From Methanosarcina sp. DH2 (GTDB lineage: Archaea > Halobacteriota > Methanosarcinia > Methanosarcinales > Methanosarcinaceae): a DNA stretch of 64,000 nt. How positions within the stretch are numbered: the stretch's first letter is position 1; every line of letters begins with the position of its first letter. The DNA is taken from assembly GCF_020804225.1 (NCBI RefSeq), contig NZ_WJBI01000001.1, positions 1,411 to 65,410 of the forward strand, given 5' to 3'. A program made the position numbers and the translations under genes. Of this stretch, positions 1-46,759 are shown one piece after another. Below the pieces are notes generated by a model that did no database searches, was not told the DNA's origin, and was given only the letters and a program-made list of their open reading frames with translations.

Positions 1-69
1 AACATGGATGAAATTAAGGGCAAGATAATAAGGTTGATGGGGAAAAATTGCGAAAAATACTACTTTTGA
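1..69 (+). CDS. C-terminal end of a possible transposase (partial)
   Basis: An open frame runs in from the left edge and stops at a TGA at 67-69, giving 22 residues that end in CEKYYF. The sequence TGCGGAAAGT follows ten bases later (79-88) and matches the terminal inverted repeats of the MITE-like element at 291-532, which suggests the right end of an insertion sequence with its transposase entering from outside the window. The peptide is basic and fits a transposase tail, but it is too short to assign a family, and the frame could be chance. Confidence 0.35.
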   Translation, partial: NMDEIKGKIIRLMGKNCEKYYF

Positions 70-929
70 GTGGGGATCTGCGGAAAGTCAGTTAAATCCA
101 TACAACAGCTCATAACCCAATATAATTTTGAATTTATAAAATATACTATTGACACCATTAAGTATGATATTTTTATTATAAACTGCAGGCAGGTTTGATC
201 ATTAAAAAATAGAAGAAACACTTATAAATAAAAGATTTTTTAAAATAAAGAATAATTTCTTAAAATAATAAGAAATTATTAATAATTTATCCCACATTCC
301 GCAGTATTTTTTAAAAAATCAATATTTTTCCTGATAGCGTTTTTGAAACAAATCAAATTAATTTGGATTTTTATGTAACTTGGTGAAAATTGACTGATAT
401 CGTTTTTTGGTCTCTTTGATACACCATATAGCTACTTTACTTCCTACATAAAAGTCCGATAAATCCACGTTTTATTGAAAATCGATAGCAAGAAAAAATG
501 TGAATATGCGAAAATTTACTGCGGAAAGTGGGTTCGATAATCCCAAACATCAAATGCAAAAATTCTATGAAAAACGCATAGATACTTTTCTCAATGTCTC
601 TATATATCAAAAAATACCGTAATAATGTTTTTTAGGATCTTCTTCAAATTAGATGGTAAAAACTAAATTTCAAATGCATAATTAATCTTTAAGAACTTGG
701 TCAAGTTTAAAAAATGTATTCAGAGAGTACATTCGACTTTATAACTGTGTATTGATATTTCTGCATATGTTTGTTGCTAAAAAATTCGCCATCTACTTTT
801 AAGAAAATACAAAAATTAGAAGTCTTTATAATGGATGTAACATAAAAATTTACAGATAAAATTAAATGTTATTATATATAGTAGTAAAGTATCATATATA
901 GAATTTATTAAGGGTTAGAAGATGATTAA
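70..929. other. AT-rich intergenic stretch with inverted repeats
   Basis: No convincing coding frame. It contains an 11-bp perfect inverted repeat (AATAATTTCTT at 251-261 against AAGAAATTATT at 270-280), the MITE-like element at 291-532, and near 878-900 a TATATATAG/ATCATATATAG stretch that could serve as promoter for the small gene starting near 930. Confidence 0.5.
291..532. mobile_element. MITE-like element with 16-bp inverted ends
   Basis: CCCACATTCCGCAGTA at 291-306 is the reverse complement, with one mismatch, of TACTGCGGAAAGTGGG at 517-532. The 242 bp between carry no gene. The core TGCGGAAAGT also occurs at 79-88, just after the possible transposase end at the window edge, so the small element may be a non-autonomous relative of that insertion sequence. 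No target-site duplication is obvious. Confidence 0.5.
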
Positions 930-1480
930 ATGAGTGAAATCCACGATTCTATTAGAGAAAAGATGATTTAGAACTTCTAAAAATAGGTTTAAAACCTGCC
1001 GAGGAAGAAATTAGAGATTTGAAAAAATATTGGAAGATGCTTACCTACTTAGACAAAAATGATGTGTTAGGAGATGTATTTGACACTTTAAGTACATGGA
1101 AAAATCAAAATATTCCTTCTGAAATAAAACCAACGTATGATAAACTTTACGAAGAAGCTTATTCTTTACACAAAACAAATGATGTAAATAAACCATCTTT
1201 ATTTGACAAAGTGATTTCTGCGTTGTCAAATGCTAAAAATAAACAAGAATTACCGCGTGCTCGAATAATTGCTAATTATATACAAATTATTCCTCAATTA
1301 CCTCCAGATGTCCTAAGAGATTTTGAAGTTTTCTTTGGTATAGATAAAGAACTGGAAAAATATGGAAGAACACTTATTATATACGAAAAACTTTTTGTTG
1401 AAGGAGGAACAAAAGCCCGATATTATGCAGTTGCACATTGTTTACTCGATTTATATGAAGTCTACTTCAGGAAAGTTTAA
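930..1480 (+). pseudogene. Small unknown protein gene with a probable frameshift
   Basis: An ATG at 930 opens a frame that stops at 969-971. One extra A in the AAAA run at 958-961 would join it to the open frame that continues without stop to 1480, giving about 184 residues beginning MSEIHDSIREKDDLELLKIG. Without that correction the downstream frame could start only at a TTG at 1019 (153 residues). The protein is charged and helical with no signal peptide, membrane segment or recognised motif. A TATA-like sequence lies near 880-900 and an inverted repeat resembling a terminator follows at 1622-1647. Whether the frameshift is real or a sequencing error in a homopolymer cannot be told. Confidence 0.45.
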
Positions 1481-1621
1481 AAAAATATCTGTTTTTCGAC
1501 TTTTATTAAATGAAGTTCTATAATGTATTGATTGGTTATTTTGCCGACAACTAATGTCTTTCTGATTTGTATAATATCAAAGAAAAAGACTTTCCAATCC
1601 CTTTGCAAGACACTTCTATAT

Positions 1622-1647
1622 ACGAACGTTTACCATAAAACGTTCGT
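1622..1647 (+). terminator. Hairpin followed by T-rich sequence
   Basis: ACGAACGTTT (1622-1631) and AAACGTTCGT (1638-1647) form a perfect 10-bp stem with a 6-base loop, followed by GTTTT. It lies 140 bp beyond the small gene ending at 1480. Confidence 0.4.
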
Positions 1648-1913
1648 GTTTTAAAAAGTGAACAAAAAAGTGTAAAAATGATGAGGGAATTTACGGAAGA
1701 TTTAATACACTGCCTCCATTATTTATTAATTGACAAAATTGAAAATCACTCCAGAGCTAACTCCAGCTTCCTAACATGCTTATATCTTTTCGTGGGGTTA
1801 TGCAAAAATAACGAGATTGATTAGAAGAATTTATAACGAGTTTGTGAAACTGAGTATAAGTGCCACAATTTTATTATAAAAAAATATTTTAAAGGATAGA
1901 AGATAAATAAAAA

Positions 1914-2088
1914 ATGAAGATAAGTCATACAAAATCATTTTAGTTTTAAGGCCTCTTCTTTTTTGTCAATTATCTTTTTATCTACTGAATCTGTAGTTAC
2001 TGCGCAAAGCGATTCGCACACAGCGCGATATGCTTACATTTCAGATAATGGCAACAGCTCTATTTCTGTTTATAGATATGTTAATTAA
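1914..2088 (+). pseudogene. 5' remnant of a YVTN-type surface protein gene
   Basis: An ATG at 1914 gives nine residues and a stop, but a shifted frame then reads a hydrophobic signal-like segment (SSFLSIIFLS), a probable cleavage region (VVTAQSDS) and the opening of a beta-propeller repeat (RYAYISDNGNSSISVY) before a TAA at 2086-2088. This is the layout of archaeal YVTN surface proteins such as the two intact genes near 58.7-62.9 kb. Only the first repeat remains and the rest is gone, so it is a decayed fragment. Its family assignment rests on the YxSDNGNxSxSV pattern. Confidence 0.5.
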
Positions 2089-2108
2089 TTTGCTTTAGGG
2101 GATAAATA

Positions 2109-4139
2109 ATGGCCAAGCTCGAGTCTGTTTTTTCAAAGTTATTGGGTACGAAAGACTATCGGATAAATGATTTAGTTGCTGAAACTAACAAAATTAGTGG
2201 TGTACCTGAAGACAAAATAGAAATTAGAATAAGAAAATTAATTAACTCCGGTAAATTGTTTTTATATAATCGTAATATGATTTCTTTGGAACCTCCTATC
2301 GAAAAAGCAAGTGTAAATTTTGATGAGAGATATGATTATGATGGAATAACTTTAGGAAGAAAAGGAAGAGAGATACATATAGTCTCAAGCTTTGAAGGTG
2401 AAAAGCATAAAGAAATGATGGATAAAATGAAACATAATTTACCTGAGCTTAAAAAAGAAGTATATCAATTGTTAGCCAAAATTGAAAATTTAGTTATTCA
2501 AAGCTTTAATCCACTAGATGTTTTAGGGCATGTCTTCACAACGAATCTAACATGCGATCCTGAAAAATATACTGAATCTAGTTTTAAAGGAACACAACTT
2601 CTTGTAGAACTTCTACATAATATCGTATTAAAGTCTGATTTCAACGTATTTCCTAAAGAAAGTGATTTCACTAAACTTGATGAACTTGAAGGACTTTTGG
2701 ACAAGTTTTTGGACAAATTTCAGTGTCTCATCAATTCTGAAATAATATTAAGAGATGATTTATCCTTTGAAGAGCAAAATGTATATTTCAATACCATAAT
2801 TCATTTCCTATTTATGAGAGGGGATGCATATCCACAACATAATCAGCAACTAGCTGAAGAGTTCTTTTCTAACATTGATCCTAATTTATTGAAAAAAGAG
2901 TTTACAATAACAGAATATTTTTCAACTGTTGAAGAAATTAGTAATCAAATAAATTCGAATCTGTCTAATTTTTTTGGATTCTTATCTCAGATAAAAAAAG
3001 AACATGAAGCTTGGTTGAAGTTTGTTGAACAAGGTCTAGAAAAAGGAAAGTCTTATCAAGAGATAGATCTCGAATACAAGCAAAAAATACCTACAATAAG
3101 AGAAAAACTGTTCCCAGAATATAGAAAGTATTTAGAAATAAAAGAAGTAAAAAATATTTTTGAAATAAAATTGAATGAAAAAATTAATAAGAGTATATTG
3201 GACTCTTTAGTAACTGGTTTTAATTCCAATCCAACTTGGTCGTCTCCTTTTGATATCAGTATCGTTCCATTAAAACCAATTATAAAAATAGAAGAAAAAT
3301 ATTATTGTTTCATTGTACAGCATTTAATCAGAAATGTGATACCTATTATAGAGGAATCCTTTTTCCAAGGAGATGAAAATAAATATGCTAAAGCAAAGGG
3401 AGACTTTTTCGAATCCAAAACTTTAGAACTGATAAATAACATTTTGCCTAATTCAAAAATATATCCACAATTGGAGTACCCAAAGAGAACTGAATTAGAT
3501 GGATTAGTGATCTATGAAGATAATCTTTTTTTGATTGAAGTTAAAGGAAAGAAAAGACGCTGTATCGCCTGCACACAGGATATCCTAAAAATGACAAAAG
3601 ATGATGTCACAGAACAGATCAAAAAACCTTTTGAACAATCAAAAAGAGCTTTAGAATATATAAAAAGTAAACCGACAGCCGAGTTCAGGGACAAACAAAA
3701 AAGAACAAAACTCCCAATAAAGGAAAAGGAGTTTAAAAATATCTTCCTAATAAATGTAACTGCTGACTCATTTTCGGAGTTTACTACTGATTTAAATGTA
3801 TTAAAATTATGGGATCCAGAGCTTTTTAAAGGGGATATTTATCCCTGGAATGTTAATATATATGATTTATTGGTAATAACTGATTTGTTAGAGAATGCGG
3901 ATGATTTCATTGGTTATGTATCAGAACGTGTACGTTTAAGTAAGGATAATGATATTAGAGCTATAGATGAACTTGATTATCTAAGGTATTATCTAGACAC
4001 TGGATTTTTAACAAAAGAGAAAGGCATTGAAAGCAGAACAATTCCAACGATTATAGGATATACTGAAAATATAGATAAATGGTATTCTTATCTGCGAGGT
4101 GAAATTGATTTTGCTGAAAAACCAAGAAAACATACATAA
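2109..4139 (+). CDS. Large protein with PD-(D/E)xK nuclease-like site
   Basis: A 676-residue protein with no signal peptide or membrane segment. The N-terminal 70 residues are helical and resemble a winged-helix fold. The middle is long and helical. Residues 435-480 carry the hallmark of a PD-(D/E)xK nuclease: FFESK, then E462-L-D464 at the end of one strand and LIE477-V-K479 in the next. That motif is seen in restriction enzymes, Holliday-junction resolvases and nuclease-related (NERD-like) domains and usually means metal-dependent DNA cleavage. A lysine-rich segment with CIAC follows. The gene is very AT-rich, stands alone in the accessory stretch between mobile-element traces and tRNA-Leu, and is probably acquired. 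A role in defence against foreign DNA is inference. Start ATG at 2109 is preceded by GGGGATAA. Confidence 0.75.
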   Translation: MAKLESVFSKLLGTKDYRINDLVAETNKISGVPEDKIEIRIRKLINSGKLFLYNRNMISLEPPIEKASVNFDERYDYDGITLGRKGREIHIVSSFEGEKHKEMMDKMKHNLPELKKEVYQLLAKIENLVIQSFNPLDVLGHVFTTNLTCDPEKYTESSFKGTQLLVELLHNIVLKSDFNVFPKESDFTKLDELEGLLDKFLDKFQCLINSEIILRDDLSFEEQNVYFNTIIHFLFMRGDAYPQHNQQLAEEFFSNIDPNLLKKEFTITEYFSTVEEISNQINSNLSNFFGFLSQIKKEHEAWLKFVEQGLEKGKSYQEIDLEYKQKIPTIREKLFPEYRKYLEIKEVKNIFEIKLNEKINKSILDSLVTGFNSNPTWSSPFDISIVPLKPIIKIEEKYYCFIVQHLIRNVIPIIEESFFQGDENKYAKAKGDFFESKTLELINNILPNSKIYPQLEYPKRTELDGLVIYEDNLFLIEVKGKKRRCIACTQDILKMTKDDVTEQIKKPFEQSKRALEYIKSKPTAEFRDKQKRTKLPIKEKEFKNIFLINVTADSFSEFTTDLNVLKLWDPELFKGDIYPWNVNIYDLLVITDLLENADDFIGYVSERVRLSKDNDIRAIDELDYLRYYLDTGFLTKEKGIESRTIPTIIGYTENIDKWYSYLRGEIDFAEKPRKHT

Positions 4140-42147: not shown

Positions 42148-43178
42148 ATGTATCCTGTAATAAAAAATTCATTTACTCTCGCATTATTTTTAATTATTTC
42201 TTTATTTGCTTCTTGGCGATGATTTTAAAGAGGGATTAACCCCAGGCAATCCGGAAGGCTTGGTATACGTCACAAATTTTACCCTGAATTCTTCAATATA
42301 TGTAGAAAGTGCAGAACTAACAGCCACAGTCAAAAATGTTGTTCCCGGGCCGACAGACGAATTTCTAGATAAAGTATACATTAACGAAATAGATCTCGGG
42401 CCCTCAACAGCTATATCCCTGAAAACATTTCGGATTCCACTGCAGTGGATATTACAATTCCTGTTCACTCTACTCTTTTAAATTCCGGAGCCAATACCAT
42501 AAAAATCAGTTCCGGGAGTAGTGCAAACGGCAGCAGTTACAATGACTTTGAATTTTACGACCTTACGCTCCATCTGAGCGAAGCCGAACCTGTAATACTG
42601 GCTCCGCCTTTAAAAGTTGCCTGGACTTATTAATTGCCCTGGAAACTCAGGTCCGATATGCAGTCCTGGGTAAACCTTGTTGCGGACGGTGTCCTTTACC
42701 TTAGTGAAGGTGCCTTCGGAGAGAACGGTATTATAGCCGTGGATGCGGAAACAGGCGAACTACTCTGGAGTGAGGAACGGAGCGCTGACCTTGGGTATAA
42801 AGATGGGGTTTTGTTTGCTGTGCACTATCCGAATATTGATGCACTGGACGCAAAAACTGGTGAACTGTTATGGAGTAAAAAATATCCGGATGTCGGGTGG
42901 AGTTTGCTACCTTTTATTTTCCCCCGATTGCTATCGCTGGAATGCTTTTTTTGCTGGCAGTACTTCTGAGGAAAAGAAATAATAAGTCCCTTGTCTTTGG
43001 CTCCTGGCTAATAGCTTTAGTAGGGGTTCTTTGTCTTTCTCTTAGAGCCCTGGACCCGTATACTACTGGTGTGGGAGTATTATGGTTATTGGCTGGTCTG
43101 ACCTTCTGGTCCCCGCCTGTAATCCTTTTGTCTGGCATCGTGTTTCTTGTATCTGGGGTCCGGAAGAGGAGGAAATGA
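42148..43178 (+). pseudogene. Decayed PQQ-like beta-propeller surface protein
   Basis: From ATG 42148 the reading starts with a signal peptide (FTLALFLIISLFAS) and then breaks frame several times: near 42213, near 42440, at an in-frame TAA about 42631, and near 42895. The pieces read GNPEGLVYVTNFTLNSSI and later two PQQ-type repeats, AVDAETGELLWSEE and ALDAKTGELLWSKK, followed by a C-terminal membrane part with three hydrophobic segments (FPPIAIAGMLFLLAVLL, FGSWLIALVGVLCLSL, LLAGLTFWSPPVILLS). Originally a secreted or anchored propeller protein. No piece is likely to be translated into a working product. Confidence 0.8.
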
Positions 43179-43386: not shown

Positions 43387-43813
43387 ATGGAAATTGAAAT
43401 TAAAAACCTGTCAAAAGCGTACAGTTCGGAAAAATCCGTGCTTTCAGGAATCGATCTCGAGCTTCGGCCTCCTTCAATCATAGGATTAATAGGGCCAAAC
43501 GGGGCAGGGAAGACCACATTTATGAAAATTCTTGTCCGGCAGCTCCTTGCGTCTACAGGGTCAATAACAATTGATGGAATGGATATAGGTAAAAATGAGA
43601 ATTACCTTAAGAACCGGCTTGGGGACCTGCCCCAGGAGTTCGGACTTTATGAGGAGCTGACCGTATATCAGTTGCTGGATTATATGGCGCTTTTAAAAGG
43701 TCTCGGTCCCGAAAAAAAAGAGCGGATCGAAAGCTGCATCGAAAAAAACCGGGCTTTCCGATAAGCAGAATTCCGGAATAAAAACTCTTTCAGGGGGCAG
43801 AAGCAGGGTATAA
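43387..43813 (+). pseudogene. ABC transporter ATPase, frameshifted and truncated
   Basis: The frame starts with MEIEIKNLSKAYSSEKSVLS and Walker A GPNGAGKTTFMKIL, and continues through the Q-loop (GDLPQEFGLYEELTVYQLLD). It loses frame near 43745 within IEKN; in the next frame the sequence goes on to the ABC signature LSGGRSRV and stops at 43811-43813. Walker B and the H-loop are missing, because sequence of a different, bacterial type begins here. A membrane-protein remnant at 46328-46759 on the far side of that insert may be the permease of the same system. Confidence 0.85.
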
Positions 43814-43863
43814 TTGAATTATGATTAAGAGATATAAGGCGAAAATTAGAAAGGAAGAATACC

Positions 43864-44589
43864 ATGTATCCATTTACAGACCAGTTTATGTCCAATGATG
43901 AAAATGTTGAGTTCCTGAAAGCCACAATGATGGGACCAAACGCCATGCGGTTATCAGAGGAATTGTCGTCGCACCTGAACATCAATGAGAATATGCGAAT
44001 CCTTGACCTCGGCTGCGGGTGTGGTCTTTCTACGCTGTTGTTGGCAAAAAAATATGGCGCATCCATTTTCGCCGCCGACCTTTGGATTTCGCCAACTGAA
44101 AACTATGAGCGTTTTCAATCTATCGGGATTGATGATAAGGCCGTTCCGATTTCCGTAGACGCGACCAAAGGGTTGCCTTTCGCAAACGGATATTTTGACT
44201 TGTTGTTCACCGTGGACGCTTACCATTATTTCGGTGATACGGTAGAAATGCTCCCGTCGCTCATTCCTTTTGTGAAAAAGGGCGGCTATATCGCCGTGGC
44301 TATTCCCGGCATAAAATATGAATTTGGGGAAAATGTCCCTGATAAAATGAAGCCGTTTTGGAATGATGAGGTGGCAAGGACTATTCATTCTCTTGATTGG
44401 TGGAAAAACTTATGGGAAACAGAAAAAGGTATTGAAATTATTGACATTCGTGAAATGCTCTGCTGTAAACAGTCGTGGGATGAATGGCATACCAGCTATT
44501 GGCAAGGTATCGAGGAAGATATAAAGATGAGGGAAGCTGAAAACGGAAAGTATTATAATCTTATTCAAATGATTGCTAAAGTAATCTAA
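43864..44589 (+). CDS. SAM-dependent methyltransferase, bacterial type
   Basis: A 241-residue class I methyltransferase with motif I ILDLGCGCGLSTLLLAKKYG (residues 46-65), the acidic end of strand 2 (IFAADLW), and motif IV DLLFTVDAYHYFGD. AAAGGAAG precedes the ATG by seven bases, a strong bacterial-type ribosome site. The substrate is unknown; close-looking cargo genes occur in Firmicutes mobile elements. It is the only gene of the foreign block with an unbroken frame, and might still be expressed if a promoter is present. Confidence 0.88.
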   Translation: MYPFTDQFMSNDENVEFLKATMMGPNAMRLSEELSSHLNINENMRILDLGCGCGLSTLLLAKKYGASIFAADLWISPTENYERFQSIGIDDKAVPISVDATKGLPFANGYFDLLFTVDAYHYFGDTVEMLPSLIPFVKKGGYIAVAIPGIKYEFGENVPDKMKPFWNDEVARTIHSLDWWKNLWETEKGIEIIDIREMLCCKQSWDEWHTSYWQGIEEDIKMREAENGKYYNLIQMIAKVI

Positions 44590-44788
44590 CCTTAATCACC
44601 AAGACGCAGAAAATAAGCATACTGCGCAGTCAGCCTTAGCACCAATAGATGAAGTAACATCGGTCAAATTGGCTTGATGTGCCGGGATAAAAACAGAATA
44701 GTAACATACCCACTGCCCCAACGAGAAATAAAAAAACCGTTGTTGCGGCGGCTGATTAGCTTTGCCTAAAACAGTATAGCGTAGCCTG

Positions 44789-44827
44789 ACGGCGGTTTTG
44801 ATAACCGAAAATCAAAGCCGCCGTTTT
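44789..44827 (+). terminator. Strong bacterial-type terminator
   Basis: ACGGCGGTTTTGAT (44789-44802) pairs with ATCAAAGCCGCCGT (44810-44823), a 14-bp stem with one G-U pair, followed by TTTCC. It lies 200 bp after the methyltransferase. Confidence 0.75.
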
Positions 44828-45043
44828 CCTTTTGAGAAAATTGGATTGCGGAGGGTGTATTAAAGTCACCCTTTTTTCAGGACACGGCGGTAACAAGGAG
44901 GTTGCCGCCATGTTCTGCTATGTCTATCGACAAAATAATCCTTATTTTGCACCATCAAAAAAAGCCCTTACCCGAACGGGGCATACCACGCCTATCAATG
45001 TATCTACACACATTACACGATAGGAAATATTTACCTATCCTCT

Positions 45044-45080
45044 TGCGCCCGCCTGGATTGTGTCCAGCCGGGCGCATTTT
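45044..45080 (+). terminator. Second bacterial-type terminator
   Basis: TGCGCCCG (45044-45051) pairs with CGGGCGCA (45069-45076), and CTGGA with TCCAG inside it, followed by TTTTT. It lies between the methyltransferase and the sigma-factor remnant. Confidence 0.8.
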
Positions 45081-45232
45081 TGCATTTGCCCCATTTTTTT
45101 CAAAAACCACTCCGTGAGTTTTGCAGATTTGCAATGCTCACCGTAATAGTGGCGAAAGGGGAAAAGCCATCACCGCTCTTGCAGAAAGAGGGTGAGAATG
45201 TGACACCCTCAAGCCATGAGCGAAACAAGCAA

Positions 45233-45639
45233 TACGCTTTTGACAGCTTTTGCAAAAAGGTACTAAGCACGAAGCCCGCGACCACTACGACGAAATGAAA
45301 CGGCAACGTGAACGTGAGGTATCCTTTTCGGAGTTGTCGGCGCAAGAAATGGAGCAGCTTTTTACAGTGGATAGATACTTTGCCACGGAACAGGTTTTCA
45401 ATATTTTAGGCCGCGAGGTAGTCGTCAATAACGAGCTTATCGCGGAGGCCCTGCGAACTCTGCCGGAGCGTAAACGCGATATTATCCTGCTGGCCTATTT
45501 CCTTGAAATGTCTGACCGGGAAATCGGGGAAATGCTGAACCTTTTACGCGCCACTGTCCAATATCAGCGGACAAGCACGTTGCGGCAACTAAAAAAGTAT
45601 TTGGAGGAAAACGCGGATGAACAGCAAGACAGCAAATAA
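45233..45639 (+). pseudogene. Sigma-70-like factor of a conjugative transposon, frameshifted
   Basis: YAFDSFCKKVL at the start is in one frame and KHEARDHYDEMKRQREREVS in the next; a missing base near 45264 separates them. From there the frame is open to 45639: FSELSAQEMEQLF, then a region 4-like helix-turn-helix (LPERKRDIILLAYFLEMSDR, EIGEMLNLLRATVQYQRTST). This matches the short sigma-like proteins of Tn916-type elements. In an archaeon without bacterial RNA polymerase it can have no normal partner. Confidence 0.82.
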
Positions 45640-46272
45640 TTTGCTTCCATATTTTCATTTGTTCCACCTACCGCAAAGACCGTACCTTATGCACAACTCA
45701 CTCTATCCGCAACGTGGCTTAGAAGAAATCGTTATACGCAACCTACGGGAAGCAATCGCGTATGTGACGCAGTATGAGGATGATTTTATCCGTGAAGCTG
45801 CGGAAACCGACACGCGAGCGAGGGATAAAGCGTTAGCGCAGAAAAAGAATACCCTTGTGAAAGCGGAAAAACGGATTGCCGAGCTTGACATGATTTTCAA
45901 ACGCATTTTGAGGACAACATTACGGGGAAGCTGACCGACGAGCGTTTCATAAAGCTATCCCGTGATTATGAGCTTGAACAGGACAATTTAAGGGCTACGT
46001 CTAAAATCTTGCGCGAAGAAGTCAAGCAGCAGGAAAAAAGCAAGTCCAATGTCAAGAGCTTCATCGCAACGGCGAAGAAGTATACCAACCTGACCGAGCT
46101 CGATGCAACCATATTGCGGGAGTTTATCGACAAAATCCTTATGTCGAAAACTTCCGGCAAGCGGGGACGCGGAGCCGGTGACAAAGTACAGGAAATCGAA
46201 ATTGTCTATAACTTCATCGGTGCGTTTGACTTTGGAAAAGCCATTGAGCAAGCCAGAATAACCATGAAATAG
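45617..46272 (+). pseudogene. Fusion of HTH-protein start and serine-recombinase C-terminus
   Basis: MNSKTANNLLPYF (from 45617) is the start of the helix-turn-helix gene that overlaps the sigma-like gene in these elements. It runs straight into recombinase sequence (LEEIVIRNLREAIAYVTQYE, ALAQKKNTLVKAEKRIAELD), which implies an internal deletion. One missing T near 45908 then shifts frame; the rest reads GKLTDERFIKLSRDYELEQD and IVYNFIGAFDFGKAIEQA to a stop at 46272. This is the coiled-coil C-terminal region of large serine recombinases (TnpX-like). The catalytic N-terminus is gone. Confidence 0.82.
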
Positions 46273-46277
46273 CGAAA

Positions 46278-46306
46278 GTCGGCATAGCCTAATGTGCCAT
46301 GCCGAC
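46278..46306 (+). terminator. Hairpin after the recombinase remnant
   Basis: GTCGGCAT (46278-46285) and ATGCCGAC (46299-46306) form an 8-bp perfect stem just beyond the recombinase stop, near the presumed right end of the foreign block. No T-run follows, so it may instead be part of the element end. Confidence 0.5.
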
Positions 46307-46327
46307 AATCGCATTAAATGTTTTCTT

Positions 46328-46759
46328 AACTCACCGCTGCTAATCACGGCTGTTTTTATATTTGCCGCGTCCTTGCCGATTTTATTAAGCTTTGTGTATT
46401 ATGCCTATTACTTTAATTTCTATGCTTACGCTGAATTCATGCTGTCTTTACTGTTATTTTTATTGACTTCCCAGGTCTTTGTGCTGGGGCTTGCCCTGGC
46501 GGTCGGGAGAATCAATTCCAGACTACTTTACCCTCTTTTGCCTCTTATGCTGTTTCTGGGATTTTTTAATCCGAGGTTTCCTGTATGGGTTGACATTTTC
46601 GGGAATAATTTTCTTTCGTGGCCCCTGCGCTGGTATCTGGGGGTCATGGAGAGTCCAATACCTTATACTTTGCCAGAAGACTTCCTCTACAGCAGACTGA
46701 TTTTTTCATTTATGGGTGCCGCTCTGCTGGCACTCGCTTGCAGGAAGTCTAAAACTTGA
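46328..46759 (+). pseudogene. C-terminal remnant of a membrane protein, probably ABC permease
   Basis: Archaeal-type sequence resumes after the foreign block and is open to 46759, with four hydrophobic segments (LLITAVFIFAASLPILLSFV, AEFMLSLLLFLLTSQVFVLG, LLYPLLPLMLFLGFF, LIFSFMGAALLALACR). There is no proper start; the ATGs upstream belong to the foreign block. Its position opposite the truncated ATPase gene suggests the permease of that ABC transporter, with the middle lost. Without the missing part the assignment stays tentative. Confidence 0.55.

Follow-up and report, generated by a model that had tools for sequence, protein, structure and literature searches.

Homology and composition mark positions 43807-46341 of the window as clostridial DNA that is foreign to the Methanosarcina-type chromosome around it. 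This block represents the right end of an integrative element with a serine recombinase, of the Tn1549/CTn type known from gut-type clostridia. Very probably, such a clostridial element integrated by means of its own recombinase and was subsequently reduced by a left-hand deletion, a second deletion and frameshifts. The remnant is dead and cannot move autonomously. The window is the whole analysed stretch of 64,000 nucleotides, positions 1411-65410 of a 916,655-bp contig; it belongs to a 4.6-Mb genome (37-contig draft, 99.9% complete, 1% estimated contamination) that encodes methyl-coenzyme M reductase alpha, and it has orthologous operons in common with other genomes of its genus. The locus is composed as follows.

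43387-43806, + strand: stump of an archaeal ABC ATPase gene, truncated by insertion/deletion (homology to the intact gene of L022-L024, 288 aa, at 83-89% DNA identity, ends at 43805-43806)
43807-46341, + strand: foreign clostridial block in place of 3,068 bp of an archaeal operon (homology borders; k-mer model)
43864-44589, + strand: intact class I SAM methyltransferase gene in the cargo position of the element (PF13649; 81% aa identity to Clostridia G173, 75% to archaeal genus g10)
44716-44913, + strand: conserved leader of the element, with a hairpin covering the ribosome-binding site and two terminator hairpins, at 44788-44825 and about 44855-44878 (83% identity to Anaerovirgula L118; aligned relatives; fold z -3.3)
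44911-45024, + strand: short leader open reading frame after the terminators, read from the sequence, following the conserved AGGACACGGCGGT...GGAGGT
45217-45639, + strand: sigma-70 region-4 regulator, frameshifted near 45264 (PF08281 in the reading frame 45250-45639)
45617-45645, + strand: start of an HTH_16 gene (~12 codons), which overlaps the sigma stop codon (alignment to L043/L118; HTH_16 in an intact relative)
45645-46272, + strand: last third of a large serine recombinase, ~200 C-terminal aa spread over three frames by shifts near 45715 and 45908, with its catalytic domain deleted (DUF4368)
46273-46341, + strand: natural right end of the element (86% identity over 91 bp to L152/L153, ending at 46341)
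46342-46759, + strand: remnant of an archaeal permease gene, codons ~114-252 (82-86% DNA identity to L022-L024 from exactly 46342)

Three congeners (G011, G003 and G005) contain an intact ABC-transporter operon at the same locus, in which the gene for the ABC ATPase (288 aa in G011) is followed by one for a 763-aa protein that contains a peptidase M1 domain and one for a putative permease of 252 aa. In the window, 3,068 bp of the G011 operon are absent and 2,535 bp of other DNA are present instead, and the ATPase stump contains two single-base indels. Both flanks are collinear with the locus in the three other genomes, in agreement with the original prediction that the block sits among archaeal genes, and the presence of the intact operon there rules out that the block consists of ordinary archaeal genes in the same position. 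The borders had been predicted at 43814-46310; the block indeed lies there, while its exact limits had to be corrected to 43807-46341.

The composition of the block sets it apart from the rest of the window. The k-mer log-odds per 500 bp are +13.7 to +29.4 in the five bins from 44001 to 46500, far above the background (mean -20.7, sd 8.7, maximum -3.1). The DNA is 66-86% identical to clostridial loci; no near-identical donor element is known among these matches, and a megablast search of plasmids with the block gave no match. In other Methanosarcina genomes only the methyltransferase part has counterparts, and DUF4368 was found in one of 112 Methanosarcinaceae genomes and in one of 393 genomes of the phylum (136 genera), in both cases the genome of the window. 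The predicted Firmicutes-type origin is thus borne out, and can be narrowed to Clostridia, by the DNA matches, the k-mer signal and a clostridial order of modules.

This order, cargo-leader-sigma-HTH-recombinase, is that of the Tn1549/CTn family. Integrative elements of this type in Clostridia (G358, L072) have, like the block, a cargo region followed by the leader, a sigma-70-like gene, further small genes and a large serine recombinase at the right end, and G358, L072 and the block have their terminal sequence in common. The two bacterial terminators that had been predicted are present as terminator-like hairpins, of which that at 44788-44825 was obtained from a terminator scan and that at about 44855-44878 was read off the conserved leader alignment; the hairpins GACGGCGGTTTTGA...TCAAAGCCGCCGTTTTCC and GGGTGTATTAAAGTCACCCTTTTTT are retained in clostridial loci with different cargo. 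At 44870-44913 the ribosome-binding site lies within a hairpin (GGCGGTAACAAGGAGGTTGCCGCC ATG) ahead of the short reading frame, an arrangement common to clostridial elements that looks like a translational or attenuation switch. The sigma-70-like factor was also recognized correctly, and its protein has 68-70% amino acid identity to copies in Anaerosphaera aminiphila and Anaeromassilibacillus; leader and sigma gene together align with the latter over 825 bp at 72%. The start codon of the HTH gene at 45617 overlaps the sigma stop, as predicted.

The recombinase tail, which runs to 46272, contains DUF4368 (PF14287, E 2.5e-22), corresponds in the alignment to the part of the E. ramulus recombinase that starts at about residue 382, and aligns with clostridial elements over ~690 bp at 66-67%. 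The relatives of the Tn1549/CTn type have the domains Resolvase/Recombinase/Zn ribbon/DUF4368; the catalytic and Recombinase domains, which are found in the G358 relative, are gone from the window copy, so that of a recombinase ending in DUF4368 at one end of the element only the tail was found. Together with the natural right end, this tail supports the predicted arrival on an element carrying its own recombinase. The predicted decay after arrival is equally evident: the frameshifts near 45264 in the sigma gene and near 45908 in the recombinase are real, a third shift is located near 45715, and the HTH start is fused to the recombinase by a deletion, with the junction at about 45640-45652 and ~2.2-2.5 kb absent in comparison with clostridial relatives.

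It should be noted that the block is claimed only as the accessory/recombination end of a Tn1549/CTn-type element, because the conjugation module (PrgI, VirB4, CD1107/CD1108, topoisomerase, relaxase) is absent from it. The G358 relative carries PrgI, CD1107, CD1108 and topoisomerase III, and the designation "conjugative" in the original prediction therefore holds for the element type by way of relatives, whereas no conjugation gene survives in the block. In contrast to its Tn1549/CTn-type relatives, the window copy lacks the conjugation module, the left end, the HTH body and the catalytic part of the recombinase, and has an archaeal host. Membership in the Tn916 family was ruled out: the recombinase is of the serine type, not a Tn916-type tyrosine integrase, and a search of the window's own genome for the Tn916-type Rep_trans relaxase (PF02486) found none, and thus no displaced left part of Tn916 type. 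Among the elements described in the literature, CTn2 and CTn7 of C. difficile have one large serine recombinase each (PMC3158075), CTn5 has a serine integrase and is assigned to the Tn1549 family (PMC4701971), and Tn5397 (TndX) and Tn4451 (TnpX) are clostridial elements with a large serine recombinase (PMC3158075). CTn2 and CTn5 are likened to the block by description, the sequence comparison being limited to other relatives, and the likeness of Tn5397 and Tn4451, which lies in the large serine recombinase, is likewise one of description.

On the right, the block stops where elements of this kind naturally end. In six clostridial loci the element terminates with the motif ATGTTTTCTTAAYTCACCGC and a few more bases; beyond this point the sequences diverge, and in most of the loci the flank that follows is different, as in L148, L150, L151 and L072. 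The block aligns to G364 and G156, which count as one insertion because they have the flank in common, at 86% up to exactly 46341, and archaeal homology starts at 46342 (the archaeal site reads CTTCGGC/AATCACGG). A defined end common to independent insertions was thus found at 46341, and it is certain only to about two bases, because G358-type elements may share two further bases (TT). The meeting of both limits to the base suggests that the element joined the site via its own recombination end, and is the strongest evidence for such a joining.

The precise right end also bears on the possibility that clostridial reads were erroneously joined into an archaeal contig. Contamination or chimerism is judged from the assembled sequence alone, of a 37-contig draft with 1% estimated contamination; however, two false joins would have had to leave and re-enter the same orthologous operon, one of them exactly on a natural element end, and the flanking ATPase stump is itself decayed. 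The collinear flanks in three genomes and the element end at the right border therefore make a chimera very improbable.

The left border is of a different nature. No element end was recognized at 43807, and the left end has presumably been deleted; no direct repeat that would represent a target-site duplication is present at the borders of the block. In related elements the counterpart of this border is an interior cargo position after the conjugation genes (PrgI, CD1107/CD1108 proteins, topoisomerase III), and a comparison of G358 with G266 yielded homology limits, with no settled left end or crossover dinucleotide. Alternatively, a bacterial fragment might have been taken up and inserted by illegitimate recombination on both sides, replacing 3 kb in one step, and the recombinase would have had no role in the archaeon. 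This would agree with a left junction at no known element end, and a single replacement would account for the missing 3,068 bp at once, but a right junction on the element end to the base is improbable for a random fragment, although a linearized excised element could have produced it. Altogether we regard the capture of a fragment as unlikely, if less so than a chimera.

Integration at 46341/46342 followed by one deletion is the simplest history. A serine-recombinase integrative element of the Tn1549/CTn kind would have passed from a clostridial bacterium into a Methanosarcina-type cell and been inserted by its own recombinase into codon ~113 of the permease gene, so that its right end was joined to archaeal DNA; it is the action of the recombinase in the archaeon that we infer from the precise end. 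The element's left part, with its end and whatever conjugation genes it carried, would later have been deleted along with 3,068 bp of the archaeal operon, so that the ABC ATPase gene now abuts the sequence immediately ahead of the cargo methyltransferase gene; these parts are lost, and probably in one event. Another deletion, of ~2.2-2.5 kb, would have removed the bulk of the HTH gene together with the recombinase's catalytic part, and frameshifts would have broken the remnants of the sigma and recombinase genes.

The methyltransferase, which had also been predicted, is the sole product of the remnant that could still be made; the protein weakly resembles small-molecule methyltransferases. Its nearest clostridial kin have 83% DNA identity, and clostridial homology starts at ~43833, a few dozen bases upstream of the gene. 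In the tree, the window copy falls into a 100/100 group with two clostridial genes (81 and 79% aa identity), genes of g10, a small-genome genus of the same archaeal family that is perhaps Methanimicrococcus, and a deeper clostridial/archaeal pair. The native Methanosarcina methyltransferases, with 46-50% identity to the window copy, form a separate group (92/94), which rules out a vertical Methanosarcina origin. No viral contigs carrying the gene were found. The two separate clostridial/archaeal groupings (L130, L131, L132) indicate that the family has apparently crossed between Clostridia and the small-genome archaeal genus more than once; genes of the 100/100 group have thus probably moved between domains on more than one occasion, in whichever direction. 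Because the clade mixes Clostridia and another archaeal genus, the route of the methyltransferase is less certain than that of the rest of the block.

The gene could have been acquired apart from the element, perhaps from another archaeon, and the block would then be composed of two unrelated foreign pieces. A second archaeal genus has close relatives (75% aa identity), the homology of the two closest clostridial copies to the block ends with the gene and a few upstream bases, and no known element links the methyltransferase to the leader. Against this, the gene sits where related elements carry cargo (an ABC transporter in L118, an MFS transporter in L046), its closest relatives come from Clostridia, and its k-mer signal is that of the block. 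A separate acquisition is rather improbable, although it deserves more weight than the capture of a fragment, and position, k-mers and closest kin argue that the methyltransferase belongs to the element. On the branch leading to the window copy, dN is 0.047 and dS 0.06 with an interval that includes zero, and thus no selection or relaxation since arrival is claimed; the pairwise omega against the clostridial copies is 0.17.

Many methanogen genes are of bacterial origin, and the vehicle of their transfer is seldom seen. Here, an archaeal gene has kept the end of the vehicle with base precision. This supports integrative elements as one means of transfer from clostridia to methanogens and provides a concrete recombination site. 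The block is physical evidence that clostridial elements can cross into archaea. We consider it quite possible, though tentatively, that the clostridial large serine recombinase was produced in a living methanogen and inserted its element there site-specifically, which would make methanogens genuine recipients of elements of the Tn1549/CTn type, and that the cargo methyltransferase was retained as a working gene.

The original prediction had regarded the block as a rare record of a bacterial element in a methanogen; the event itself stands, and it is less rare than implied. Khedkar et al. 2022 (PMC8989519) described a 13-kb element that Bacteroides ovatus has in common with Methanosarcina mazei, and state that in their data only conjugative elements took part in events between archaea and bacteria. 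Because transfer of an element between a bacterium and Methanosarcina is already published, the block is a further well-delimited case of a known kind of transfer. Both are mobile elements between Bacteria and Methanosarcina, likened here by description; the B. ovatus/M. mazei element is >95% identical, recent and nearly whole, whereas the block is diverged, broken, of clostridial type and recognized by its attachment end.

Some further observations concern related elements and the surroundings. Two related clostridial elements (L169:14157-15140 and L072:8082-9065) carry an RlmN/Cfr-like radical SAM protein of the rRNA methyltransferase family in the cargo position. Upstream of the ATPase stump, a PQQ-repeat (beta-propeller) gene at 42206-43178 is also broken: ~740 bp are absent at 42887/42900 in comparison with the intact 608-aa gene in L022, and the remainder is spread over several frames. 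Positions 1-4100 of the window are AT-rich (26-30% GC versus 40-50% across most of the window), encode a 676-aa protein with a nuclease-related (NERD) domain at 2109-4139, and possibly represent a separate island.
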